Below are positions 15,899 through 62,317 of a stretch of 64,000 nt of DNA, piece by piece; position 1 is the first letter of the stretch; each line of letters starts with the position of its first letter. This DNA is from Phaeocystidibacter luteus (GTDB taxonomy: Bacteria > Bacteroidota > Bacteroidia > Flavobacteriales > Schleiferiaceae). Under the pieces are notes generated by a model. That model saw nothing but the letters and a program-made list of their open reading frames with translations. It did not search any database and was not told the origin of the DNA. The stretch covers positions 434,001-498,000 of the forward strand of contig NZ_WBVO01000001.1 of NCBI RefSeq assembly GCF_008933115.1, read 5' to 3'. The position numbers and the translations under genes were made by a program.

Positions 15899-16026
15899 GA
15901 CATCCTGTGTAAATTGATTTGTGTTACCGGGTACCAATTTACGTACCAAACTCATTTGTGATTCACACAAAAAACAAAATGGCAGAATTTTAACACATGC
16001 CGTACTTTTCTGAAAAACTGTTAGTT

Positions 16027-16725
16027 ATGCACGCCAAATTACTGTTCGCGTCTTTGCTCATTTTTTTGACATCTTGTTCAGAAACTCCGAAATATCCCTA
16101 CGGTATCGCCCCCGTGAGCGATGTCGAAGAATATGAGAAATCCATCCAAAAATCGCCTTCTAATCGGTTTGTCGATTTAGAAAATGAGCTCAATTTGGCG
16201 CGTTTTGATATCCGGTACGCCACGGCGAATAACTTTACTAGTGAAATTATATATCCTGAAGCGGCTGCCTGGACCAGAATTGACGTTGCTAAATCGCTAT
16301 CGCAGATAGAGGACTCTTTAGCGAAACATGGATTAGGTCTCATCATCTTCGATGCGTACCGCCCCTATGCCGCAACAGTTAAATTCTACCAAGTTTACAA
16401 AGACACCAACTATGTGGCCTCTCCATATTCGGGAAGTAGACATAACCGTGGGTGTGCGATAGACCTTTCGTTGTACGACTTGAAAACAGGCCGTGAACTG
16501 CAGATGCCAACGAAGTACGACGACTTCAGTTCGGCGGCCCATCAAACCACAGAGTCGCCCGACTCTACAGCCCAGTATAACAAAGTATTCTTACGCAAGG
16601 TGATGACGGAATTCGGATTTGAAGTCTACAACTACGAATGGTGGCATTTTGATTACTCCGGTTGGGATCAATATGAAATCATGGATTTATCATTTGCTCA
16701 ATTAAAATCCTCCTCTGCCGATTGA
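16027..16725 (+). CDS. Lipoprotein D-Ala-D-Ala dipeptidase (VanX/DdpX-like, M15D)
   Basis: The start at 16027 gives a lipoprotein signal with lipobox FLTSCSE. The zinc-binding motif of family M15 is visible as SRHNRGCAIDLSL (His and Asp ligands), and the catalytic Glu and third ligand as YEWWHFDY. The family hydrolyses D-Ala-D-Ala, in non-resistant species to recycle peptidoglycan. With a lipid anchor it would act in the periplasm, unlike cytoplasmic VanX. No van regulatory genes are nearby, so housekeeping wall recycling is more likely than glycopeptide resistance. Confidence 0.88.
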   Translation: MHAKLLFASLLIFLTSCSETPKYPYGIAPVSDVEEYEKSIQKSPSNRFVDLENELNLARFDIRYATANNFTSEIIYPEAAAWTRIDVAKSLSQIEDSLAKHGLGLIIFDAYRPYAATVKFYQVYKDTNYVASPYSGSRHNRGCAIDLSLYDLKTGRELQMPTKYDDFSSAAHQTTESPDSTAQYNKVFLRKVMTEFGFEVYNYEWWHFDYSGWDQYEIMDLSFAQLKSSSAD

Positions 16726-16811
16726 GGTACTTCCTCTTCAGAGAAGAAAACATCCTGAAGCTCGGGTAAGATATGAGCGTGATCCTCGCTGAGGTTTTCG
16801 TCGCTTAACAT
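16698..16811 (-). CDS. Small acidic peptide with HxHILP motif (37 aa)
   Basis: A short frame beginning MLSDENLSED, with the core HAHILPELQDVFF and an acidic tail. Alone it would be doubtful, because its end overlaps the convergent dipeptidase gene by 28 bases. What supports it is a second small frame about 700 bases away on the same strand (17502-17624) that aligns with it along most of its length (H-x-H-I/V-L, P-x3-D, paired hydrophobics, then E-x-E). No signal peptide or membrane span. Function unknown; an inhibitor, peptide precursor or regulatory peptide are all possible. Confidence 0.4.
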   Translation of the reverse strand: MLSDENLSEDHAHILPELQDVFFSEEEVPQSAEEDFN

Positions 16812-16969
16812 GATAGTGTGCTTTGGTTTGTATGATGTTGGTACTACAAAGTAAGCGGGATTAAAATTGAAATAGTGCACGCCTCAGAAAGTTCGCACAA
16901 GAGGATTCCTTTAAACAATACTGGGTAAAAAGCTGTTAATGAATAAACTAACATTTTAAAACCCAAGTT

Positions 16970-17431
16970 ATGAACATACGAGACCTTGTGAGCTACGCAT
17001 TGAAAACAGCTGCTGGTCTCATCGGATTTTTTATGCTGATGAAACTTGCTGGCTTAGAACAGCACCACGAATTGAGGCTCTTCAATTTCGTAATTGTACT
17101 AATCGGAACCTTTTCGCTGCACAGAAAGATGTTTCTCAAGGATGGGAATCATGGGTACTTCAGTGGATTCTTCTCTGGGATACGCATGAGCGCAATGGCG
17201 ATTGTGTTCTTTATGGTATTCTTAAGCCTGTACGCTTCTATCATCGACCCACAGTTCATTGAGCTAGCGGAGGATAGCGGAATCTGGGGTGGTAAGCTGA
17301 GTTTATTCCAAACAGGCATAGCTATTCTATTTGAAGGATTGGCAAGTTGTATAGTGCTCAGCTACACCTCGATGCAATACTTTAAACCGTACGTAATGGA
17401 CACGGCCGATTGGGGTCAGGAATCTGCTTAA
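16970..17431 (+). CDS. Four-span membrane protein, hypothetical (possibly DUF4199-like)
   Basis: 153 residues with four hydrophobic segments (about 10-28, 38-55, 82-103 and 115-138) and short loops. It resembles DUF4199-type small membrane proteins of Bacteroidota in size and layout (NIRDLVSYALKTAAG start, GIRMSAMAIVFF), but I am not certain of the family. It stands alone between two minus-strand small peptide genes and ends at a hairpin terminator. Confidence 0.75.
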   Translation: MNIRDLVSYALKTAAGLIGFFMLMKLAGLEQHHELRLFNFVIVLIGTFSLHRKMFLKDGNHGYFSGFFSGIRMSAMAIVFFMVFLSLYASIIDPQFIELAEDSGIWGGKLSLFQTGIAILFEGLASCIVLSYTSMQYFKPYVMDTADWGQESA

Positions 17432-17439
17432 AATAAAAA

Positions 17440-17458
17440 TGACCGCACGAAGCGGTCA
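17440..17458. terminator. Bidirectional hairpin terminator
   Basis: TGACCGC pairs with GCGGTCA over a 5-base loop. A/T-rich tracts lie on both sides, so it can stop the upstream membrane gene and the leftward small peptide gene. Confidence 0.65.
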
Positions 17459-17501
17459 CTTTCAACCTGAATTGGTCAGGTTAGGTTGGTTGTAGTAAAG
17501 C

Positions 17502-17624
17502 CTATCCAATGAAGAGAGGATGGTCGAAACTATCTTGATCTTCTACTTCGATTAGCAGCGCGTCCATACAATCAGGTATCAGAACGTGGCTGTGGGAACC
17601 GAGTAACAATTCAATCTCTCTCAT
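17502..17624 (-). CDS. Small acidic peptide with HxHVLIP motif (40 aa)
   Basis: The 40-residue frame begins MREIELLLGS, contains HSHVLIPDCMDALL and runs into an acidic stretch. It is read leftward toward a hairpin with an A/T tract, consistent with its own small transcript. It aligns with the peptide at 16698-16811 over the H-x-H, Leu, Pro, Asp and Glu positions with one gap. The match of two neighbouring short frames is the main evidence that both are genes. No function is recognised. Confidence 0.45.
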   Translation of the reverse strand: MREIELLLGSHSHVLIPDCMDALLIEVEDQDSFDHPLFIG

Positions 17625-17730
17625 AATGGCTTAGGCTTATTGGTTGAATACTGTAAAATTCCGACCAATCCACCGACCGTAAAACCGTAATTCCACCCGA
17701 ATTACTACGTAGTTTCCGCACATTAAGACA

Positions 17731-17770
17731 AAAAAAATCCCCTCTGCCGTTAGACAGAGGGGATTGTTTT
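17731..17770 (-). terminator. Terminator of sucD
   Basis: An 11-bp stem (AATCCCCTCTG/CAGAGGGGATT) with an 8-base loop, followed leftward by seven T. It lies just after the sucD stop. Confidence 0.9.
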
Positions 17771-17787
17771 ATCAGGTTGAATCGGGA

Positions 17788-18657
17788 TTAACCGATTACT
17801 TCCGCCATTTTAACACCAATCTCAGCCGGCGAATCTACAACGTGAATGCCGCAGTCGCGCATAATTGCTTTCTTGGCTTGAGCCGTATCCTCTGCTCCTC
17901 CAACGATAGCGCCGGCGTGGCCCATGGTACGACCCTTAGGTGCAGTTTCACCAGCGATGAAACCTACTACAGGCTTGTTTCCATTCTCTTTAACCCAGTT
18001 CGCTGCAATAGCCTCTAGGTTTCCACCAATCTCACCAATCATAACGATTCCATCCGTCTCAGGATCGTTCATAAGAAGTTCAACGGCCTCTTTAGTTGTT
18101 GTACCGATGATTGGATCACCACCAATACCGATTGCCGTACTGATTCCCAATCCGGCCTTTACGATCTGATCAGCTGCTTCGTAGGTTAGCGTACCTGACT
18201 TCGAAACGATGCCAATACGTCCTTCCTTGAAAACAAAGCCTGGCATGATGCCAACCTTAGCCTGACCGGCAGAGATAACACCTGGACAGTTTGGACCGAT
18301 CAATGTCACGTCCATTCCAGAGATGTAATCCTTCACCTTAATCATGTCCGCAACTGGAATACCTTCCGTAATCGCTACGATCACTTTGATACCAGCATTA
18401 GCAGCTTCCATGATACCGTCTGCAGCAAAAGCAGGCGGAACAAAAATGATAGATACGTCAGCTCCAGTTTCTTTTACCGCATCTTCAACTGTGTTGAAAA
18501 CTGGACGGTCAAGGTGAGATTGTCCACCCTTACCTGGAGTTACACCACCAACAACGTTGGTACCGAATTCGATCATTTGCTCTGCGTGGAAAGTTCCTTC
18601 CTTACCGGTGAAACCCTGCACGATTACTTTGGAGTCTTTATTTACGAGTACGCTCAT
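17788..18657 (-). CDS. sucD: Succinyl-CoA ligase alpha subunit
   Basis: The alpha subunit of succinyl-CoA synthetase (TCA cycle, substrate-level phosphorylation). The N-terminal CoA-binding Rossmann domain includes [15 protein letters not shown] and the [11 protein letters not shown] loop. The phosphorylated active-site His is in GHAGAIVGG (about residue 245). The 289-residue length is standard. The beta-subunit gene is not adjacent, which is common in Bacteroidota. It is monocistronic with its own strong terminator. Confidence 0.97.
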
Positions 18658-32024: not shown

Positions 32025-32075
32025 ATTGGAAAGGAATATGCACGAATGTACAACGGTCACCTTTATATTTACCGA

Positions 32076-32492
32076 ATGGTAAAGACGATCTTGAAATACG
32101 GCGCACTGATGGGCATTCTCTTGCTTGCGTATGCCATTTTAGAAAGTCTCTGGCGTGGTTCTACCGATTGGACCAATCTTGCCCTTTTCGGAATGGCACT
32201 GCTCTTCACAGCCTTTGGGATATGGGCTGGACTTCGCTTTAACCGTCCGAAAGAACAGCCTTCGTCGCATTCCAAACCTTTGACATCCCCAGAAGAATTC
32301 GATTTGCGTCCGCGTGAGATGGAAATCCTTCAACTTATGTCTACAGGTTTGAGCAATCAGGAAATCGCCGATGCCCTTCACATTAGTCTAAGCACGGTGA
32401 AGACACACAACATGAACCTGTTCACGAAACTCGACGTGAAGCGACGTACTCAGGCAGTCAGCAAAGCCCAAGAACTGGGCTTAATCGCCTAA
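32076..32492 (+). CDS. Membrane-bound LuxR-type HTH regulator
   Basis: Two N-terminal membrane spans (about residues 6-24 and 32-50) are joined by a linker to a LuxR/GerE DNA-binding domain (about 75-138: LRPREMEILQLMSTGLSNQEIADAL... STVKTHNMNLFTKL). The recognition helix is complete, and there is no receiver domain. A DNA-binding domain tethered straight to the membrane must act from the inner membrane or be released. The next gene is a DUF4199 membrane protein, a pairing that recurs in Bacteroidota. Start chosen at MVKTIL, where the first span begins. Confidence 0.88.
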   Translation: MVKTILKYGALMGILLLAYAILESLWRGSTDWTNLALFGMALLFTAFGIWAGLRFNRPKEQPSSHSKPLTSPEEFDLRPREMEILQLMSTGLSNQEIADALHISLSTVKTHNMNLFTKLDVKRRTQAVSKAQELGLIA

Positions 32493-32584
32493 TCATACTT
32501 TAGTTTTATGGGATTTCATACTTTGGTATGAGGCCTACTCGACACGAGATACGGTACTTCGCCATCAAACAAAACCATAATACT

Positions 32585-33151
32585 ATGTTGAAAACAATAC
32601 TTACTTGGGGGCTAATTGCCGGACTTATCATGATGGGAGTGTTTTTCCTCGTCATTATGAAGAAGGACTTTAGTGAAATGGACTTCGACAGTGGTCAGTT
32701 CATTGGCTACGCTTCTATGATTCTTGCGTTTGGCGCTGGATTCTTTGGAGTTCGTCAGCTTCGAGATAAATCAAAAGCTAAATGGGGTTTCTTGAAAGCT
32801 TGGGGCGCAGGACTAGGAATTGTACTAGTTGGTGGTATGATCTATTCAGCTGGCTGGGTGTATTATGCTGAAAATAATCCAGAGCAGGTTGAAGCTATGA
32901 TGGACATGTACGCAAAGTCAATTCAAGACAACCCAGAACTCACCGATGCACAGAAGGAAGCCCAGCTTCAAGAAATGGAAAGCTTCTCTGCTTTGTACGA
33001 TAATCCATTGTCGAACTTCCTTGTCACCCTCCTCATTGAACCATTACCACCAGGCATTATCATTAGCTTGATTATCGCGATTATTCTACGAAAACCATCG
33101 GTGAATCAACATAATGACCAGTTACTCGATGAAAATATTGCCTCCGCATAG
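32585..33151 (+). CDS. DUF4199 membrane protein
   Basis: 188 residues with four spans (about 5-26, 38-58, 73-95 and 140-165). It has the DUF4199 layout, including a long soluble loop between spans 3 and 4 with MMDMYAKSIQDNPELTDAQKE-like acidic helices. The start at 32585 puts the first span at the N-terminus; the 19-residue upstream extension is basic and unlike the family. It follows the membrane LuxR gene and probably works with it, perhaps as its sensor or inhibitor (inference). Confidence 0.85.
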   Translation: MLKTILTWGLIAGLIMMGVFFLVIMKKDFSEMDFDSGQFIGYASMILAFGAGFFGVRQLRDKSKAKWGFLKAWGAGLGIVLVGGMIYSAGWVYYAENNPEQVEAMMDMYAKSIQDNPELTDAQKEAQLQEMESFSALYDNPLSNFLVTLLIEPLPPGIIISLIIAIILRKPSVNQHNDQLLDENIASA

Positions 33152-38646: not shown

Positions 38647-39804
38647 ATGACCGAAAAGCTCTCACCTCTCGTACCTATGGTCGATTTTACACCGGCCCTA
38701 CTCCACAAAGGAAATTCAACCTGGTACGTTTCGTTTCGTGTTCGACACCCTGAGACGGGAAAATTGAAAGAAGTCCGATACAAATTCAATCGAATTAAGG
38801 ACCTGAAAGAGCGAGAACGAAAGGCTTTGGACCTCTGCCGAGATTTGACGATCAAACTTGCTTCAGGCTGGAATCCGTTCATTGGGAATGACAATTCACT
38901 TACGTTCATTTCCCTTGATCAGGCATTCACCAATTTCATGAAGGAGAAATTGAGCCTCGAGAAGCAAAACGCCATTCGGCCAGATACAATTAGAGCCTAT
39001 AAATCGTACTTGAAGAACTTTCGTTTGTGGTACGGTGAGAAGTCAATGACGCAGGCAGCTATTCGCCTCACAGGTACGGTCATTGATAATTTCCTGGTAC
39101 ACATTATGGAAGAGAGAGGTAATTCGTCTCGGACGCGAAACAATTACCTCTCATTTTTCCATCGATTATGTGCCTATATGGTACAGAAGCGATACCTGCC
39201 TTCCAATCCGGCTGACTCCATTCCGAAGCTGCCAGAATCCATCAAGCAACGAAAGGTTATTCCCCGCGATATCCTTAAACAGATTTTTGACCAAACCAAG
39301 CAAGACCAAGGCTATCACGCACTTTGCATGACCATCTATTATACCTTCGTACGGCGAACCGAACTCTGCAAAATCAAGGTTGAGCACCTGAACCTAGATA
39401 AACAAGTGCTGTTCGTGACTGCTGAAGACACGAAGAACAAACGCGATCGAGTTACCACCATTCCACAGGATCTAGTGTCGATTTTAGAGGATCACGTAAA
39501 ACGAGCTCGCCCCCACTACTACCTATTCTCTGCTAATGGATTCAAGCCGGGCCCCAATCAATTGAGCCCAAAGAAAATATCTGACACCTGGGTAAAGCTC
39601 AGAAAGCAAATGGGCTTCTCCAATGCATACAAGTTCTACAGCCTCAAAGACACCGGTATTACCAACATGCTGCAAATGGGTGTGCCTACCATAGTCGTTC
39701 GTGACCAGGCAGGACATTACGACATCTCCGTGACCGACAAATACACCCCGAAAGAGAACCAGAATGCAGCTCCTGAACTGCTCAGATATAGCCAAGGTTT
39801 ATAA
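38647..39804 (+). CDS. Tyrosine-type site-specific recombinase (integrase)
   Basis: 385 residues: an N-terminal arm-binding beta region (about 10-75), a SAM-like core-binding domain (about 88-195) and a catalytic domain (about 205-370). Catalytic ArgI is in FVRRTELCKIK. The C-terminal box GHYDISVTDKY gives His and the nucleophile Tyr (about residues 358 and 367). The usual HxxR box reads SLKD here, so the second Arg is replaced by Lys, a variant box also seen in some Bacteroidota integrases. It lies beside attL and directs integration into tRNA-Met. Confidence 0.93.
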   Translation: MTEKLSPLVPMVDFTPALLHKGNSTWYVSFRVRHPETGKLKEVRYKFNRIKDLKERERKALDLCRDLTIKLASGWNPFIGNDNSLTFISLDQAFTNFMKEKLSLEKQNAIRPDTIRAYKSYLKNFRLWYGEKSMTQAAIRLTGTVIDNFLVHIMEERGNSSRTRNNYLSFFHRLCAYMVQKRYLPSNPADSIPKLPESIKQRKVIPRDILKQIFDQTKQDQGYHALCMTIYYTFVRRTELCKIKVEHLNLDKQVLFVTAEDTKNKRDRVTTIPQDLVSILEDHVKRARPHYYLFSANGFKPGPNQLSPKKISDTWVKLRKQMGFSNAYKFYSLKDTGITNMLQMGVPTIVVRDQAGHYDISVTDKYTPKENQNAAPELLRYSQGL

Positions 39805-46552: not shown

Positions 46553-47101
46553 TTATTGAATGCCCGCACCGGTCATCCAGGTTAGTGCAATTTCAGCTTG
46601 AGGTACGAGGTCATCTGCATATCTCTCAATAGTCTGTTTGAGCGTGCCATAATCTCCTGTACCCCACCCTGCACGATCAGTATTCATGTAGCGCTGATTC
46701 CAGTCGTTTACAACCATGACCCTGCGCGAATCACTTAAAGTGTTAAATCGACCCCACAACTCGTTTATCCGATCTCCATTACCCCATAGATTCCAATGCT
46801 CTTCATAAGCAACGTGAATGCTATCTGTAAGTGGTTTTGGTGACCAGCTGCCGCCTCCTCCAGACGAAGAGCCTCCTCCAGTTGTGTAAATCGGAACTTC
46901 AACCTGGCTTTCTTCGTCATTTCCCCAAAGTTTGTCCCAGAATGAAGGTTCATTAGCTGCCATTTCCCCCTTGTTCTTTCCAGCTTTGTAGATGAAATAG
47001 ATAATCACAAATACAATGATGAGCGTGATAATTGAAGGGTTCTTCAACCATCCACCCACTTTAGTGACTACGCCTTGTGCAGCTGTACCTATTGCTTTCA
47101 T
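46553..47101 (-). CDS. Membrane protein with Gly/Ser linker (182 aa), virion candidate
   Basis: The N-terminal span (about residues 22-41: PSIITLIIVFVIIYFIYKAG) is followed by an interfacial motif EPSFWDKLWG (about 51-60). A glycine/serine linker (about 78-88) then leads to a soluble helical domain rich in Trp and Tyr (about 95-180). The start overlaps the stop of the 453-residue upstream gene by four bases. The layout suggests a virion membrane protein that projects a domain from the lipid layer. Function unknown. Confidence 0.68.
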   Translation of the reverse strand: MKAIGTAAQGVVTKVGGWLKNPSIITLIIVFVIIYFIYKAGKNKGEMAANEPSFWDKLWGNDEESQVEVPIYTTGGGSSSGGGGSWSPKPLTDSIHVAYEEHWNLWGNGDRINELWGRFNTLSDSRRVMVVNDWNQRYMNTDRAGWGTGDYGTLKQTIERYADDLVPQAEIALTWMTGAGIQ

Positions 47102-48459
47102 CCGTTCCAGATTCTTTGCCAGAATGACCCGGCAGTGTTATTTGCTTTTTCCATGAGCTTCTTGTCTACGCGAGGTGTAACGTTTGGCTTCGTCGATGCT
47201 GGAGCATCTACACCAGGGATGTCATACCGTCCAGGGTTTTGAGCCCACCGAAACAACCCTTCAGCGGTTAGTGGTAACCGTTTCTTATTGACGGCCAGAG
47301 CATCCATTATTTGACTGTTTGGCTTTCGTAGTTTGTTCAAACGATGTCCATATTCAAGAACCTGTTTTGGGGTTAGCGTAAAATGTTGCTCAATTTCCTT
47401 TTGAACTTCCTTCACCTCTTCTCGAGTTCCGTCCACGAATAACTCAAGCTGATCGCCAACACCCTCTTCTTTCTTGGGCTCTTTAGCTGGCTCTGGTTTA
47501 GGCTCTGTAGGTTTCGTATCAGATTTTCCGTGAAGCAACTCAAAATAGAGTTCATTCAAGGTTTTGGAAGAAAGGTCCGTTTCAGAAAGGGCTGAATTCG
47601 TTCCATGAATTGAAGCTCTAGTGAGCTTACGCTGCCAAACCTTGTTCTTCGGACTCCACCTAAAACCGTTTGATTTGAGCTTCTTTCTTTCATCAGCTGA
47701 AGGAATCTCATCAAAGCGAATCTGTACTCGATCATCAGCAAAGTTTAGAATCACTTCACCACCATCGAATGAAACAGAATTGCCGCCCTCAGATTTGGCG
47801 GCGGCTTGTTTCTTCTTGAGAAGTTTAACCCTTCCCTCTATTCGCTTAATATTCGCAAGGTTGTTGCTCAACTCGAATTGCTGGTAGCCTCGGCGATTCC
47901 CTCTTTCTGGGTTCATAAGGCTATCAATAAGCTGATCTTTCAAACCAAGATCGAGAAGACGCTTTTTCACATCCTTCTTTGAACGAAGGACAGCGTTGAC
48001 TTCCTTCATTAACTTGTGAGCCTCTTTGCGCTCGGCCAGGTCAGATTCGAGTCGTTTTAGCTCGGCATCTGGCAGGTAATACCCTTCTCTTTTGCGCTTC
48101 CCTTTCTGGAACCTAGAGAGGGCTTTATCTATGAAGTCATGAAGCTCGTTGTGTCGCTTCATTTCCACATCCAAAGCCTTATTATTTCGATCGGTTGGAA
48201 ATTTAGCTGGACCGGTAATCATTGGGCTGGCCGTGCGCGATTTCGCGCTTATTACGTCTTGCACCTTCGAGCGATATCGCTTGTAGAAGGTCTCAAGTTC
48301 AGCATCTGAAGCACCGGCTTCTTGTAGTGCCTTGATACGATCCTCTAAGATGCTTTGATAATCAGAAATGAAACGATCCCCTCTCTTTTCGGGTGAGAAG
48401 GAGATCCAGTCGAAAGCGCGACGCGCTCTCTCTTTTAAATCTGTGATATCAAACTTCAT
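47098..48459 (-). CDS. 453-aa late protein with large-polyvalent-protein-type domain
   Basis: The N-terminal 200 residues are highly charged and coiled. Residues about 230-275 contain VILNFADDRVQIRFDEIPS and KLKSNGFRWSPKNKVWQRKL, a motif shared by polyvalent proteins of phages and mobile elements. A Pro/Glu/Lys-rich linker follows (about 310-335), then a helical domain and a C-terminus GSFWQRIWNG. Polyvalent proteins are often injected with phage DNA to counter host defence. Its place among virion genes fits an injected or internal protein. The motif match is from memory of the family and the role is inference. Confidence 0.7.
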   Translation of the reverse strand: MKFDITDLKERARRAFDWISFSPEKRGDRFISDYQSILEDRIKALQEAGASDAELETFYKRYRSKVQDVISAKSRTASPMITGPAKFPTDRNNKALDVEMKRHNELHDFIDKALSRFQKGKRKREGYYLPDAELKRLESDLAERKEAHKLMKEVNAVLRSKKDVKKRLLDLGLKDQLIDSLMNPERGNRRGYQQFELSNNLANIKRIEGRVKLLKKKQAAAKSEGGNSVSFDGGEVILNFADDRVQIRFDEIPSADERKKLKSNGFRWSPKNKVWQRKLTRASIHGTNSALSETDLSSKTLNELYFELLHGKSDTKPTEPKPEPAKEPKKEEGVGDQLELFVDGTREEVKEVQKEIEQHFTLTPKQVLEYGHRLNKLRKPNSQIMDALAVNKKRLPLTAEGLFRWAQNPGRYDIPGVDAPASTKPNVTPRVDKKLMEKANNTAGSFWQRIWNG

Positions 48460-50915: not shown

Positions 50916-51557
50916 TTAAATCACATTCAATTCAGACCCTACAAAGAAGGTCAGAACAACCGTAGTGTTCGCCGCAACATTGATAAGGAGCCCAGAGCTC
51001 TTATCAAACTTGAACGGCTGATTGAACGTCAGAAGTTTGTCGTTTTGCTGCGTGTTACGCTGAGCGGTCTCAGGGTAAATCGGATTCAAACTAAATCCTC
51101 CACCGATGTCAGCGCGACCGTACTTAAAGTCTTCGCTAAACTGGGCACTCGTTCCGGTGCTCACAGTGTAGTTAAAACCTTTGGTGATGATTGGGCTCAA
51201 TTCAATTGAGCGCTGGAATGCCGTGTAAGACGGGGCACTCGTTCCGTCAGGATCAGTGTATGCACCTCCTAGAATGGCCGCAACCATACCGAGAGGGTCA
51301 CCAATCATGTATGCAGTTGTCGCACCTGTCGCGGAGTTATCCAGCGTAAAGCGCAGGGTCGATACAAAAGGGTTTTGCATCGGGGTAGAAACCGCCGATG
51401 TGCCCACCCCACCAAGCTGCGGAATTTCACCTGGAGCGGTGCGTACCTCTGGTGCATGCACGAGGCTTTCCATAGCCTGGGCACGATTGGCAGGCATAAT
51501 AATCTCTCGTACCTGCATTGGTTTCACGGCTCCGCCGTTTCTTGCCACCTTGGTCAT
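50916..51557 (-). CDS. Candidate major capsid protein (213 aa, beta-rich)
   Basis: No span and no enzyme motif. After a flexible N-terminal 55 residues it is dominated by predicted beta strands (NPFVSTLRFTLDN, TTAYMIGDP, FQRSIELSPIITKGFNYTV, SGLLINVAANTTVVLTFFVG) with Gly/Asn/Thr turns, as in jelly-roll capsid proteins. It has its own upstream regulatory region and a strong terminator, the usual sign of a highly expressed virion protein. At 213 residues a single jelly roll is more likely than a double one. The assignment is inferred from composition and context; no close homologue is recalled. Confidence 0.55.
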   Translation of the reverse strand: MTKVARNGGAVKPMQVREIIMPANRAQAMESLVHAPEVRTAPGEIPQLGGVGTSAVSTPMQNPFVSTLRFTLDNSATGATTAYMIGDPLGMVAAILGGAYTDPDGTSAPSYTAFQRSIELSPIITKGFNYTVSTGTSAQFSEDFKYGRADIGGGFSLNPIYPETAQRNTQQNDKLLTFNQPFKFDKSSGLLINVAANTTVVLTFFVGSELNVI

Positions 51558-53014: not shown

Positions 53015-53590
53015 CTACTGGTTTTTAATGATTTCGTAGTGAAATGGGTTGTTTCGGGCTTCTCGATTCACCTCTTCCTGAATCTTAATAAGTGCTTCAG
53101 GGTTCATCAACCGATCCTTACCTCTTTTGATTGAGTCTCTGGTCCGAAATAGAAAGAAGACATCAATCCAAGTGAATATTTCCACAGGCACTTGACTGAA
53201 CCCGTGAGCCGCAAAATATATGTCTACATTGATGTGCCGACGATCAATAAAGAACTTCCGAACCCTATCCGTCGGACTATACCCAGAAAGCCAGTTTCTA
53301 AAATCGTCTGATATCAATAGCATGTTTGACAAGTGTGGTACGAGCTCATCAAAGTCTTCACGTTTGTAGCACATGTATTTAGCTTTTCCTTCGAACGTGG
53401 CCACTTGATCCAGTGTGATTAGCGGTAAATCGCTAAAGGTTTTTTCGTGCTGGTTCGCGGGAATAACGAGTGCCCTACCCTGGTGCGCGTCCAATATCTT
53501 GCGCAGTACCGTGCTTTTTCCAGTACCGTTGGTTCCTAGTAATACAGAGAATAGACTGCCTTTCGCAAAGTCTTTCAAGTTATCAGCCAT
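53015..53590 (-). CDS. Zot/A32-like P-loop ATPase (probable genome-packaging ATPase)
   Basis: 191 residues. Walker A is GTNGTGKST (19-27) and Walker B-like LLISDD (91-96). After these comes the stretch DIYFAAHGFSQVPVEIF, then IDVFFLFRT, which resembles the His/Gln sensor region and following strand of Zot- and FtsK/HerA-type ATPases of filamentous and tailless membrane phages. It has no nuclease domain, unlike terminase large subunits. It lies beside a membrane protein gene (53593) and close to the capsid candidate. A role in loading DNA through a membrane vertex is the best inference; filamentous-phage-like assembly is the alternative. Confidence 0.75.
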   Translation of the reverse strand: MADNLKDFAKGSLFSVLLGTNGTGKSTVLRKILDAHQGRALVIPANQHEKTFSDLPLITLDQVATFEGKAKYMCYKREDFDELVPHLSNMLLISDDFRNWLSGYSPTDRVRKFFIDRRHINVDIYFAAHGFSQVPVEIFTWIDVFFLFRTRDSIKRGKDRLMNPEALIKIQEEVNREARNNPFHYEIIKNQ

Positions 53591-56420: not shown

Positions 56421-56876
56421 TTAAAACAAGTATTCTTCTGGATTCTCATAGCCACCGTCCTTGTCTCTGACAGTGAAATGCAGATGTGGACCGGTGACAT
56501 TTCCAGAGTCGCCGACCGTCGCAATGGTCATTCCCTTGATGACATAGTCACCAGGTTTCTTCTTGGCTTCATCGAGATGTGCGAAACCCAACTTCTTACC
56601 CGTAATCGTCTTAACAATCATGGACAATCCACCTCGATCGTGTGTGTAAACCGATTCCACAACTCCGGATTCTGGAGCAATAATGGGATCACCCACATCA
56701 CCTGCATAGTCAGTACCGTTGTGAAAGTGCCATTGCCCCGAGATTGGGTGTTCCCTTTCACCATAAGGACTGGTAATGCGTCCCTTAACAGGCCTAATCT
56801 TCGGGAGTGCGTATTCATAGATAACCCAGGCACCGAAGAAAACGGCCAGAGCTCCTACAGGGTGAAATGCTATCAT
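56421..56876 (-). CDS. Membrane-anchored M23 murein endopeptidase
   Basis: An N-terminal span (about residues 6-24) is followed by a lysostaphin-type M23 domain: GRITSPYGEREHP, the HxxxD zinc motif FHNGTDYAG (His52, Asp56), FAHL (His100) and HLHF (His131, His133). All zinc and catalytic residues are present. M23 enzymes cut peptide cross-links in peptidoglycan. The membrane anchor and placement outside the lysis block suggest a virion-borne enzyme that opens the wall during entry, in the manner of membrane phages such as PRD1 (inference). Confidence 0.88.
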   Translation of the reverse strand: MIAFHPVGALAVFFGAWVIYEYALPKIRPVKGRITSPYGEREHPISGQWHFHNGTDYAGDVGDPIIAPESGVVESVYTHDRGGLSMIVKTITGKKLGFAHLDEAKKKPGDYVIKGMTIATVGDSGNVTGPHLHFTVRDKDGGYENPEEYLF

Positions 56877-58008: not shown

Positions 58009-58415
58009 GATTCTAGATCTTGAAGCGATTTCCAGACGGCTCTAAGTAGATCAGCACTATCTTCTAATTTCGCACCACCATGACCATGTACGTTGCACTC
58101 TAGCAAGTTCTCTGCATTACAGTCGAAGATTCGTTTTGAGATAAACACGATTGTAAAATTGATATCAATCTTTCTTTCGCGCTCATCACGAAAGACCAAC
58201 AACATAGAGTCTATGATGCTTGTAGCTGCAGGATTTCGTTCTACGCCTGCATAAATGCCAGAGTCTATTAGCACGTCAATTGCATCCGAATATTTCTTTT
58301 TAAATATTCCGCTTGCAGCAACCAGATAGTCCATAGGAGCCTTAAACGGCTTCAATTCATCTCCATTCGCTTTAATCCACGACCCGAGCGCAGAATTTTC
58401 ATACTTACTTTTCAT
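58005..58415 (-). CDS. Hypothetical 136-aa protein downstream of the Dcm gene
   Basis: A soluble alpha/beta protein with LKPFKAPMDYLVAASGIFKKKY and RERKIDINFTIVFISKRIFDC. It overlaps the methyltransferase gene by 11 bases. It does not resemble a restriction nuclease: no PD-ExK, HNH or GIY motif is evident. Unknown function. Confidence 0.58.
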   Translation of the reverse strand: MKSKYENSALGSWIKANGDELKPFKAPMDYLVAASGIFKKKYSDAIDVLIDSGIYAGVERNPAATSIIDSMLLVFRDERERKIDINFTIVFISKRIFDCNAENLLECNVHGHGGAKLEDSADLLRAVWKSLQDLES

Positions 58416-59472
58416 TAGATTGGTTCTTTATGTTCTCTACTAGTTGAATGCGTTCTCCTATCCACTTCATGACCGGCACAGCCATTGAGTTCCCTAGCGC
58501 GTGATATCTAGGAAGGTCGGCTGCTGGCTTATTACGATAGGTGATGTTGGTGTAGTTATCTGGGAAGCCCTGTAACCGCTCACATTCGACAGGAGTCAAT
58601 CTCCTTAGTACTGAATCGAAATAGAGATTTTGATCATTCGCAGTTGAAAGAGTAAACGCAAGCTCGTCACTTCCGAGATAGCCCTTTCCCCCACCATCTA
58701 CCTTGCCGGAACGAACCTTAAACACGTGAGCATTTTCAACTACGTATGCAGGCTCATTTCGCTCATCACACGATCCGATTTTACCTCTAAGTGTTGCACA
58801 CTTATTGTCTTCAATTATTCCGCTTTTGAAGTTGAGATAGCGGTACGTTCTAACGCCTTCTCTAGCTCTATTGGAATTTCTTTCGAATACTTTCTTGCCC
58901 TTTTTAGAATTCCTTGACAGGCTTTCGCGCTCAAATAGTACCGCTGCGGCAGGTCGCCAGTCTCCAAGATATCCGATAAGGAACACACGCTCGCGGTGCT
59001 GGGCCACGTCGAAGTATTGAGCGTCCATGACTCTATAGGCCCACCCATACCCGATTTTTTCCATTTCCTTGGTGATTGTGGCAAATGTCCGTCCTTCATT
59101 TTCGGACAATACACCGGTAACGTTCTCCCAGACCACCCACCGGGGGCGTTTTCTCTTAGAAATTCCCAGAAAGACGAGGGCCAGTTGACCATTTTCGCTA
59201 TCCAAGCCTCCTCGAGGTCCGGCGATGCTAAAGTCTTGACACGGAGTTCCCCCGACGAGAACATCGATATCTGTTTGTTGGAATGTTTCGGTTTCATGAA
59301 TGTGGTTTAAATCTCCCAGATTAGGAACTTCTGGATAATGGTGATTAAGTACGGCGCTAGGGAAAGGGGCAATTTCAGAGAACCATTGAGCTTTCCAACC
59401 TAATTCGCCCCAGGCAACCGAGGCGGCATCAATTCCTGAACAAGCCGATCCAAATCGAATAGGATTTATCAT
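58405..59472 (-). CDS. DNA (cytosine-5) methyltransferase
   Basis: 355 residues with the ordered C5-methyltransferase motifs: I FGSACSGIDAAS (7-18), IV GGTPCQDFS with catalytic Cys78, VI WENVTG (115-120), VIII QHRERVFLIG, and X GNSMAVPVMKWI near the C-terminus. The region between VIII and X is the target-recognition domain. No restriction nuclease is adjacent, so it is an orphan phage methyltransferase, likely protecting viral DNA from host restriction. It overlaps the Dam-type gene by four bases. Confidence 0.95.
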   Translation of the reverse strand: MINPIRFGSACSGIDAASVAWGELGWKAQWFSEIAPFPSAVLNHHYPEVPNLGDLNHIHETETFQQTDIDVLVGGTPCQDFSIAGPRGGLDSENGQLALVFLGISKRKRPRWVVWENVTGVLSENEGRTFATITKEMEKIGYGWAYRVMDAQYFDVAQHRERVFLIGYLGDWRPAAAVLFERESLSRNSKKGKKVFERNSNRAREGVRTYRYLNFKSGIIEDNKCATLRGKIGSCDERNEPAYVVENAHVFKVRSGKVDGGGKGYLGSDELAFTLSTANDQNLYFDSVLRRLTPVECERLQGFPDNYTNITYRNKPAADLPRYHALGNSMAVPVMKWIGERIQLVENIKNQSNEK

Positions 59473-60362
59473 GATTCAAACAACTTTAGTTGGGCGTTCA
59501 TCCTTTGGGCATGTGGATTTATCCAAATCACTTCGTCACGTAAACAGGCTCCCTTCTTTGCAGCGTTTGATACCGCCTTAAATGATTTCATCTCCCACCC
59601 AGCTGCTCCGTACCACTCTCTGTACTCTGGTGAGTCATAGCTGCTCACAATGACCATGGATTTTAAGCCATTCGCGAATTCAAATAGTTCCCTGTGTTCA
59701 TCAATCGAAAGAAGCTCATACTTATACCGGCCCGTAGCTTTTGTTCGAGTAGTCTTAGGATAAGGAGGGTCAAAGTATATAAGGGTCCTAGTCGAATCAT
59801 GAGCCATGCAAACCTTCTGGTAATCAGATTTTTCGATAATCACCCCTTTAAGACGATTGCAAAACCCTGTAAAATCTTCGATGTGATTCTGAAACAAATC
59901 TGCCAGGCGATTATGTCCTGAAGAGTTGGTTCTGAAAGCTGCTGAAGACTTTTTGTTTGCTCGAGCTCCGCTATAGCTCATCGAATACGTGACAATCGTT
60001 CTTCGGGCATGTTCTACATCAGATATGTTGTCCTTGGATTCGAAGCTTCTCGACCACTCCTCCCTTGCATAAGGCGTTAACCGCAGAAGGTCTTGAAGCT
60101 TTACACATTTGTATGGGTCTCTTAAAACTTGGAATAGATTGACGATGTCGTCATTGAGATCATTGTAAACCTCCACCACAGCTGGTTCCTTTCTAAGTAA
60201 TACAGAAGCAGCCCCACCGAAAGGTTCTACATATACGTGGTGTTTTGGAAAACACTCTATGATCCTATCGGCCAGCCTCCATTTGCCACCAAAATACCTT
60301 ACCACCGGTCTGGAGGGGGTTGGGACAGGGTTGGGACAGGGTTGGGACGGGGTTTGGGACAT
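59469..60362 (-). CDS. DNA adenine methyltransferase (Dam/D12 class)
   Basis: 297 residues. Motif X/I region: VRYFGGKWRLADRII and VEPFGGAASVLL; catalytic motif IV is DPPY (198-201); the TRD lies between. D12-class enzymes methylate N6 of adenine, for example at GATC. The first 20 residues, a Pro/Gln/Pro-rich repeat, are encoded by the TTGGGACA iterons, so the true start may be later. Together with the adjoining C5 enzyme, and without a nuclease, it suggests anti-restriction modification. Confidence 0.93.
   Translation of the reverse strand: MSQTPSQPCPNPVPTPSRPVVRYFGGKWRLADRIIECFPKHHVYVEPFGGAASVLLRKEPAVVEVYNDLNDDIVNLFQVLRDPYKCVKLQDLLRLTPYAREEWSRSFESKDNISDVEHARRTIVTYSMSYSGARANKKSSAAFRTNSSGHNRLADLFQNHIEDFTGFCNRLKGVIIEKSDYQKVCMAHDSTRTLIYFDPPYPKTTRTKATGRYKYELLSIDEHRELFEFANGLKSMVIVSSYDSPEYREWYGAAGWEMKSFKAVSNAAKKGACLRDEVIWINPHAQRMNAQLKLFES
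60320..60361. repeat. Right iteron cluster (TTGGGACA, four copies)
   Basis: Units at 60320, 60331, 60342 (one change, TTGGGACG) and 60354, three of them spaced exactly 11 bp as TTGGGACAGGG. The same unit clusters at 39854-39974 in mixed orientation. It overlaps the 5' end of the adenine methyltransferase gene, 80 bases from the helicase stop. Confidence 0.72.
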
Positions 60363-60439: not shown

Positions 60440-62317
60440 TTAAAAGGCCTCATCTGATTCTTTTTCGTCTGACTCGTGAGTATAAGAGGGGGTGAACAGT
60501 TTGAACTTCATGATGATTCGGCGCATATCCTCATGCGGTAGCTTGGTGATATCGAATTGCATAGCGCTCGACTTGTTTCCGCCAATTCGCTTGCTCACAC
60601 GCCCTACATAGGAAGGATCGTTCTTCAACTGATCTTGAAGACTGTACTGGTCTATTCCAGGCTCTCGATAAATATTGAAGTGTTGTTTCATGTACGCCGT
60701 GTGTACAGCTCCCATGTAGAAGAAAAGATGATTTTCTTGTATGATGAATTCAGTTTCTCCTATCATATTCGGGATAGACTGAATAAAGCATTCCCAGAAG
60801 GTAGCTACAGGCCCTGATTTACTCATTCTCTTGGCCTGACGCTTCAAAACCTTAGTAGAGATGTCAATGACATCCTTTCTATTGAATGGAAGCTTCAGAG
60901 AGTCTGAAACGGCGTCATGTACAGCTAGAAGTATGGTCATGTTGTTAATCATTCGACCATCGATGTCAACCTTCACATCTTTGAGTGCATTCTTTATATC
61001 CTTCCTAGCAGCTGGAATGCATTTAGTGAATTGCTTTTCGAAGGCTTTGCGAAGCATCAAAAGCTCTTGAACGATGCCGCTAAACCCTTCTTCATTCCAT
61101 TCTAGGATTTCCTGGAAGTCTGATTCTTGCTGGTCTGTATATGGATTCGCTCCAGCTGGCTTCTCCCATTCACTTACGATGAGCCTAGAAAGAAGTGATT
61201 TGTTGATAGGGTAATGGTTCCCGGTGACAATAGCTCCACAATGGATAGGTGTATATGTAGTGGCAAAACGTCCTGTGATTGTGCCGGCCGAATACCCCCT
61301 TCGATCACTGATGCGTTTCAGGTATTCTACTTTGTCGTCTTTTAGCGTGTTTTGATACTCCTCCAGACGAATAATGATGTTCCTAAACTCTGCAAACTTG
61401 CGGATTTCGGCTTTCTCGGTTGTAGCGTTACCGGTAAGTGTAATCTCCTGCATGGCAGGGTTTCCATATATGCCTTGAATCGCTGCAGCAAGGGTTGATT
61501 TACCGGTACTCTTCTCTCCAAAGAAGAAAAGGAGCGGCCATTGAGTAAAGGACTTTAGAATGTGATCCGCATAAAGCGTTGCAATTCCATATAGGATTGC
61601 ATGAATTGACTGAGGCCCAAACACGCGAAGTATCTGAGCACTAAACTGTTCGAACGTAACATCTGTCTCTTTGCAAACCAGAAGCTTTTGTGCAAGAAAC
61701 TTGTTATCGTCATCCTCATATATCTCATTGGCGCTGGGTACATAATACTGCACGCCTTTATACTCAAAACAGCCTCTCTCGTCGTATTCAATGACTGATG
61801 AATTAACCGCGCAGTTGTTGAATGCGAAAAATCCCTCTTTTTGCCAACCTAACACGTCGATTAAGCGGCCATCACCCATTTGGTCCATCGTTATACCCAT
61901 CAAGGCCTCAAACTGGTCTGTGCGGCCCCAAAAACGATAGTTGCCGAACTTCCCTATTTCATCTTTGAACCGGGATACGCTTGTAAAACAAGAAGTAGGC
62001 ACGTCCACGGTTCGAATACGGTGATCGAGATTTTCCAAACGAATTAAACGACTCGGAGCCCGGTCGTTCTCTATATGCTGAATGATCTCTAAGGTGAAGT
62101 TGCTGATTGCCTTAAACCAATACTTAGACTTTGGATTCTCTTCATCGTCTGTAGGCTCGTACTTCCCTTCTCTACCGTATATGACACCATGGGCCATGAA
62201 AGCCTGGTACTTGAGTACATCCTCATATACAGCTTCCCATGCAACACCTTCAGGCATGGTGTACTTGTGATTCTCTGGAGCTTCTGCGTTCTCTAGATCT
62301 GGACTAACTTTCCTCAT
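60440..62317 (-). CDS. Phage replication helicase, D5/P4-like P-loop ATPase
   Basis: 625 residues. The N-terminal 150 residues have no obvious primase active site. A region with GWQKEGFFAFNNCAV resembles DUF927-type helicase leaders. The P-loop is FFGEKSTGKSTLA (about 266-278), followed by IIIRLEEYQN (Walker B-like) and AIVTGNHYPINKSLLSRLIV (sensor and arginine finger). A helical C-terminus follows. It should unwind DNA at the element's origin as a ring. Partner primase and polymerase must come from the host. It overlaps the upstream gene by four bases. Confidence 0.85.
   Translation of the reverse strand: MRKVSPDLENAEAPENHKYTMPEGVAWEAVYEDVLKYQAFMAHGVIYGREGKYEPTDDEENPKSKYWFKAISNFTLEIIQHIENDRAPSRLIRLENLDHRIRTVDVPTSCFTSVSRFKDEIGKFGNYRFWGRTDQFEALMGITMDQMGDGRLIDVLGWQKEGFFAFNNCAVNSSVIEYDERGCFEYKGVQYYVPSANEIYEDDDNKFLAQKLLVCKETDVTFEQFSAQILRVFGPQSIHAILYGIATLYADHILKSFTQWPLLFFFGEKSTGKSTLAAAIQGIYGNPAMQEITLTGNATTEKAEIRKFAEFRNIIIRLEEYQNTLKDDKVEYLKRISDRRGYSAGTITGRFATTYTPIHCGAIVTGNHYPINKSLLSRLIVSEWEKPAGANPYTDQQESDFQEILEWNEEGFSGIVQELLMLRKAFEKQFTKCIPAARKDIKNALKDVKVDIDGRMINNMTILLAVHDAVSDSLKLPFNRKDVIDISTKVLKRQAKRMSKSGPVATFWECFIQSIPNMIGETEFIIQENHLFFYMGAVHTAYMKQHFNIYREPGIDQYSLQDQLKNDPSYVGRVSKRIGGNKSSAMQFDITKLPHEDMRRIIMKFKLFTPSYTHESDEKESDEAF

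Follow-up and report, generated by a model that had tools for sequence, protein, structure and literature searches.

A conserved small acidic protein gene beside sucD in one flavobacterial genus, with a probable diverged paralogue nearby

Genus-specific bacterial genes have been collected in TRGdb (PMC10410690), and CydX, a part of a cytochrome oxidase complex, is a bacterial small protein of under 50 aa (PMC4325964); both serve here for comparison. The small gene P2 and its counterparts, which are the subject of this analysis, come from a window of 64,000 nucleotides of the Phaeocystidibacter luteus genome and from the genomes of two other species of the genus (G001 and G002). Like the genes of the TRGdb type, the P2 family is short, occurs in one genus among the genomes searched and has no family model, but unlike them it is accompanied by a probable paralogue nearby and by a conserved upstream element. 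With CydX, P2 shares the size range and a presumed binding to a larger partner; however, P2 is acidic and looks soluble, and the comparison concerns size and presumed action. The family is not named in the titles or abstract openings covered by our literature search.

Two short peptides encoded on the minus strand, of 37 and 40 aa, had been described in the original prediction, and both exist as described. P2 (17502..17624, minus strand) is the conserved gene of a 40-aa acidic small protein, MREIELLLGSHSHVLIPDCMDALLIEVEDQDSFDHPLFIG, which starts with HSHVLIPDCMDA and finishes with HPLFIG. P1 (16698..16811, minus strand) encodes a 37-aa acidic small protein, MLSDENLSEDHAHILPELQDVFFSEEEVPQSAEEDFN, and is a probable diverged P2 paralogue. 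The shared motif reads HAHILP in P1 and HSHVLIP in P2, so that one gap is needed in their alignment, exactly as had been proposed. An alternative start of P1, GTG at 16880, would extend the product to 60 aa; the alignment of the family favours the ATG. The two genes lie about 0.7 kb apart, and between them is the gene of a 153-aa DUF4199-like protein (16970..17431, plus strand; Pfam DUF4199 E 2.1e-06, 28.7 bits vs. a cut-off of 32.3), to which an ORF at the same place in G002, and none in G001, is similar. P1 overlaps by 28 nt the 3' end of the convergent gene of an M15-family D-Ala-D-Ala dipeptidase (15997..16725, plus strand; Pfam Peptidase_M15 E 6e-32). On the other side, P2 is adjacent to sucD, encoding the succinyl-CoA ligase alpha subunit (17788..18657, minus strand; Pfam CoA_binding and Ligase_CoA), which is its neighbour in all three genus members.

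A search of 60 relatives with P2 gave two strong matches (E 4e-9 and 8.7e-9), both in the other species of the genus. These orthologues, P3 of G002 and P4 of G001, are 51% and 49% identical to P2, respectively, their lengths are 39-40 aa, and P2, P3 and P4 are all encoded directly downstream of sucD (3/3 genus members: the window, G001 and G002). The comparison set for the orthologues is thereby three species of one genus. In a pairwise coding test over 38 codons, the differences between P2 and P3 fall at the three codon positions in the numbers 16/6/25 (pS 0.70, pN 0.34, dN/dS 0.22), those between P2 and P4 as 14/7/26 (pS 0.72, pN 0.34, dN/dS 0.19) and those between P3 and P4 as 15/11/24 (pS 0.78, pN 0.36). 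The dN/dS values are rough, because dS is saturated (2.1 and 2.3, and infinite, beyond correction, for P3-P4). In the two shifted frames of the alignment pS is about equal to or below pN, and no coding pattern is seen. Change biased towards the third codon position together with low dN/dS is characteristic of purifying selection acting on a protein, and the results of our analysis show P2 to be a genuine small-protein gene under such selection. Conservation of the frame in close relatives, on which the original prediction had been made to depend, is thus seen for P2 in both of them, at a dN/dS of about 0.2. Codon use was scored in the window for 198 ORFs of 30-60 aa with an ATG start, P1 and P2 included; P1 came out highest, with 17 of the 198 at or above P2 (P2 included). 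A codon score restricted to synonymous choice marks neither gene in this set, 53/198 ORFs being at or above P1 and 33/198 at or above P2 (each included).

The search for more distant relatives had also been proposed earlier, and it was run on the relatives and on samples of the family, order and class. Among the family genomes, three of 88 held convincing matches and one more matched at E 0.07 (five-row profile); the order sample of 395 genomes added three genomes at E 0.008-0.02 with the same five-row profile, and the class sample of 395 genomes, searched with a three-row profile, added 13 at E 8.5e-4 to 0.05. The weak E values in the order and class samples are close to those expected by chance for this number of genomes. 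All 29 weak loci were read in their context, and as candidate distant relatives they were counted as chance: longer ORFs contain 11 of them in frame, a further 17 are on the opposite strand or in another frame of such ORFs, in some cases with stops as well, and the last (L093) is interrupted by a stop. A search of genome contigs returned the G002 record alone, the own or near records having possibly been excluded from it. No match was found in viral contigs with the orthologue profile, or in phages and plasmids with P2. For the peptides, no match exceeded the cut-off in Pfam, NCBIfam, PHROGs or PDB; the weak matches were that of P4 to NikR_C in Pfam (E 0.22, 12.2 bits vs. a cut-off of 22), the other four peptides giving none up to E 1, and one of P5 (see below) to a PHROG of unnamed function (E 0.079). 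Synteny was followed beyond the genus at 30 sucD loci (41 matched of 45 genomes) over about 1.5 kb behind the gene, and the motif was seen in the three genus members alone. Within the genomes searched, convincing relatives thus occur in a single genus, and P2, P3 and P4 form a taxonomically restricted small protein family, with purifying selection on P2 and a range of one genus.

The standing of P1 is less simple. In 60 relatives it has no match beyond its own genome, and the remaining matches of the searches with P1 and P2 have E values of 0.03-0.8. Compared with P2 alone, P1 gives a Smith-Waterman score of 35, a value that 80 of 5000 shuffled P1 sequences also reach, and P1 was picked among hundreds of ORFs; among the short ORFs of the window it leads narrowly in the comparison with P2 (35 vs. 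31). In G001, however, a 35-aa ORF, P5, lies at the position corresponding to P1, where the dipeptidase gene has its 3' end. When 961 ORFs of 25-100 aa from the window and 15-kb stretches of the two relatives were each scored against P2, P3 and P4 and the scores summed, P1 (124, scored in its longer form, 16698-16880) and P5 (99) ranked fourth and fifth, directly behind the three orthologues. The best sum score outside P1 and P5 was 87, and the mean without the top three was 50 with a standard deviation of 9. No shuffle in 5000 reached the sum score of the 37-aa P1, and 20/5000 reached that of P5. At the DNA level, the P5 unit compared with the units of P3, P4 and P2 was equalled by 0, 1 and 8 of 500 shuffles; the P1 unit was equalled by 2/500 in comparison with that of P3 and by 28, 42 and 73 of 500 in comparison with those of P5, P4 and P2. 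A profile of the orthologues gave E 1.1 for both P1 and P5, with one unrelated ORF level with them.

These comparisons have to be weighed against the view that P2 is real while P1, and P5 in the same way, are open frames occurring by chance where the dipeptidase gene ends. Such a view would agree with the direct comparison of the P1 and P5 peptides, which is not significant (663/5000 shuffles as good), and with G002, which has no counterpart of P1 and in which P3 alone is returned by a profile search with an E limit of 10. The conserved element upstream of P2, described below, is recognisable at P5 (14 of 2554 windows score as well) and was not found at P1 (1461 of 2554), which again would suit a chance ORF. 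Against it, P1 and P5 are the top two of the 958 ORFs other than the three orthologues and stand at the same genomic place in two species, and the coding score of P1 is the highest of the 198. We consider a chance origin of P1 and P5 rather unlikely, though it is the most serious of the alternatives discussed here; P5 is taken as a paralogue of the P2 family, and P1 is probably a diverged paralogue of P2. The original prediction of two related short peptides, probably both real genes, stands for P2, and for P1 it holds more weakly: of the two relatives, one has an ORF at the corresponding position, to which P1 shows no significant direct similarity.

All five peptides (P1-P5) have a pI of 4.05-4.32 and at most one K or R. 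Neither a signal peptide nor a membrane segment is seen in P2 by eye. The AlphaFold model has helices at residues 2-10 and 17-24, with a mean pLDDT of 64, which is of low confidence and below use for a fold search. The predicted shape of P2 is probably that of two short helices around an HxH-L-x-P-E turn, with an acidic linker and the conserved HPLFI end.

The surroundings of the two genes bear on two of the roles suggested in the original prediction, and lend support to neither. Pfam scanning covered 12 proteins in the window from 10 to 24 kb, the neighbours in G001 and G002 being listed as ORFs; besides the genes named above, it indicated exonuclease VII, a secretion-sorting-domain protein, an S46 peptidase and a thioredoxin-like protein. 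No toxin, peptide-maturation enzyme or exporter was found among these 12 proteins. A part in a toxin-antitoxin system might be suspected from the small size and acidity of the peptides, which are antitoxin-like, and from their nearness to each other. In the window, however, P2 lies between two hairpins with the next gene on the other strand, so that the unit has no second gene; no partner gene is present among the 12 neighbours, and no scattered copies were found in the three genus genomes, viral contigs, plasmids or phages (the last two searched with P2 only), all of which makes this role very improbable. A precursor function, with modification or export of the peptide, or a function as a communication signal, would be in line with short paralogues close together and with an HPLFI end conserved in the orthologues. 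No maturase or exporter is encoded among the 12 Pfam-scanned neighbours, a remote maturase being possible, no signal sequence is visible by eye, and conservation in the orthologues is spread over the leader-like and end parts alike; we regard a precursor role as improbable, if somewhat less so than that in a toxin-antitoxin system.

Non-coding conservation at the P2 locus concerns both sides of the gene. The best conserved non-coding stretch of the three-locus alignment, as judged by eye, is a presumed promoter- or operator-like upstream element (17687..17722, minus strand; TGTGCGGAAACTACGTAGTAATTCGGGTGGAATTAC) present at all three orthologous loci. In the letters of P2 it reads TGTGCGGAAACTACGTA-nnn-ATTCGGGT, from which P3 and P4 differ at few positions; its TGCGG starts 91-96 nt before the start codon in P2, P3 and P4, and it lies directly after the sucD terminator. 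That terminator is a hairpin of 13 pairs with a T tail (17736..17765, minus strand), matched by the terminator scan, and it separates sucD from the P2 unit. In the 3' part of the P2 unit (17432..17501, minus strand), a C-rich CCTAACC is followed by a terminator-like hairpin and T-run, and the C-rich CTAACC stretch, hairpin and T-run are common to the loci of P2, P3 and P4. The consensus of the three hairpin sequences has 13 pairs, of which three show a compensatory change and seven are disrupted by a mismatch or gap in one of the sequences, and its covariation term is +1.0; the simple terminator scan lists the sucD hairpin and does not list this one. With an upstream element and a 3' hairpin of its own, P2 looks like a one-gene transcription unit, and this arrangement suggests that it is presumably transcribed and expressed as such.

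In attenuated operons, too, a hairpin and a T-run come after a short ORF, which encodes the leader peptide. P2 resembles them in this order of parts but, unlike attenuator leaders, has no run of one amino acid. No co-directional gene follows the P2 hairpin in the window or in G002, both of which have a gene of the opposite strand there; in G001 the gene that follows is P5.

By eye, two TACG repeats are placed 22 nt (two helical turns) apart in the element of P2 and P4, the second being TACT in P3. Repeats two helical turns apart are shown by some response regulator sites; a likeness of the element to such sites, or to those of alternative sigma factors, was considered without being adopted. 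The core pattern, searched exactly in 99 genomes, gave seven matches, three of them at the P2 locus (one per genus member), and the reversed control gave three. The long form, with up to three mismatches in six genomes, gave nine matches, three at the P2 locus, vs. five for the reversed control, and its best match elsewhere (L061, two mismatches) is inside a long ORF. The shorter form in the three genus members gave eight matches, three at the P2 locus, vs. two in the control; the other five come from G002, where four fall within long ORFs or on the strand opposite to them and the fifth is intergenic. Within the window, the 14-nt core with up to three mismatches is not enriched (four found vs. 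3.4 expected), and its sole exact match is at the P2 locus. No regulon of the element is claimed. An exact second copy of the core, TGCGGAAACTACGTA, is present in contig 54 of G002 (L069, 1501-1515), with a similar repeat, GTGCGGAGCTTACG, 22 nt further. It lies between a response-regulator-like gene, which we take to be of the LytTR type, and a secreted-protein-like gene.

The functional alternatives are, in falling order, a dual-function RNA, a metal-binding peptide, and the two roles already discussed, peptide precursor and toxin-antitoxin part. The first would hold that a transcript of about 200-300 nt, a size derived from the positions of the element and the hairpin, pairs through its CTAACC 3' stretch with target mRNAs, the protein being a second product. 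The conserved upstream element, as well as the C-rich stretch before a hairpin and T-run at three loci, would fit this. Conservation of the ORF is nonetheless codon-like, and in two of the three sequences the folding of the 5' region does not exceed that of its shuffles (z -1.6, +1.3 and +1.0). Rfam is empty at the curated threshold, its three weak matches (Yfr10, NsiR1 and Hrs13) being on terminator hairpins and below gathering scores, which leaves a regulatory RNA an unlikely explanation. The weak matches to Yfr10 and NsiR1, both cyanobacterial sRNAs, fall on the sucD terminator hairpin (17723-17796); terminators mimic such Rfam models.

NikR binds nickel through HxH and Cys. By analogy, P2 could be a metal-binding microprotein, in which HxH and a Cys six residues past the second His would hold, sense or buffer a metal ion. 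HxH is present in all three orthologues and in P1, the Cys in two of three orthologues, and P4 has a weak local resemblance to the NikR C-terminal domain (PF08753; E 0.22). That value, however, obtained for one of five peptides, is at chance level (12.2 bits vs. 22), and P4, unlike NikR, is without a DNA-binding domain and far below cut-off. Moreover, the Cys is not conserved: P3 has Thr in its place, P1 and P5 lack it at the corresponding position, and P5 has HYS instead of HxH. Metal binding is, in our estimation, slightly less probable still than the RNA function.

The explanation we prefer to these is that of genus-restricted acidic microproteins, encoded in P2 as their own transcription unit and acting by partner binding; taken as a whole, we hold it with about even confidence. 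The upstream element would switch the P2 unit on, and the helices and C-terminal tail of the peptide would bind a larger partner. Most probably, the proteins would have an intracellular role as small regulators or adaptors. Partner binding is the mode of action of most characterised proteins in this size range, and it is for this reason that P2 is supposed, by analogy, to bind a cellular partner. P1 would be a duplicate diverging beside P2, and P5 its counterpart in G001, a similar copy next to the dipeptidase gene there. A wider combination, born in the genus, duplicated and diverging in place, would unite on one transcript a C-rich regulatory 3' RNA with an HxH microprotein that binds a metal or a partner, under the control of an element nearly unique to the locus; it is conceivable from the sequence features, and we consider it quite improbable.

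The result is modest and alone would not surprise a specialist. It provides, in one flavobacterial genus, a testable case of a very short gene under purifying selection that has no protein-family match in the libraries tried, and such cases bear on the origin of tiny lineage-specific genes and on their binding partners.

Other sites of the window are described here as separate observations. The region 38647-64000 is probably a provirus. It encodes an integrase (38647-39804, plus strand; PHROG 1, E 6.8e-48), primase-like proteins (60440-62317 and 47098-48459, both minus strand), a metallo-endopeptidase (56421-56876, minus strand) and a packaging-type ATPase (53015-53590, minus strand) with a weak terminase match (E 3.2e-05), as well as two genes at 58405-60362 which are presumably DNA-methyltransferase-like. 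A PHROG match is absent for five of the ten scanned proteins of this region, the candidate structural protein at 50916-51557 included. Possibly, the region represents a tailless phage. Elsewhere, at 32046-33151, a putative short membrane-anchored LuxR-type helix-turn-helix protein is encoded beside the gene of a small membrane protein, both named by eye from the translation.
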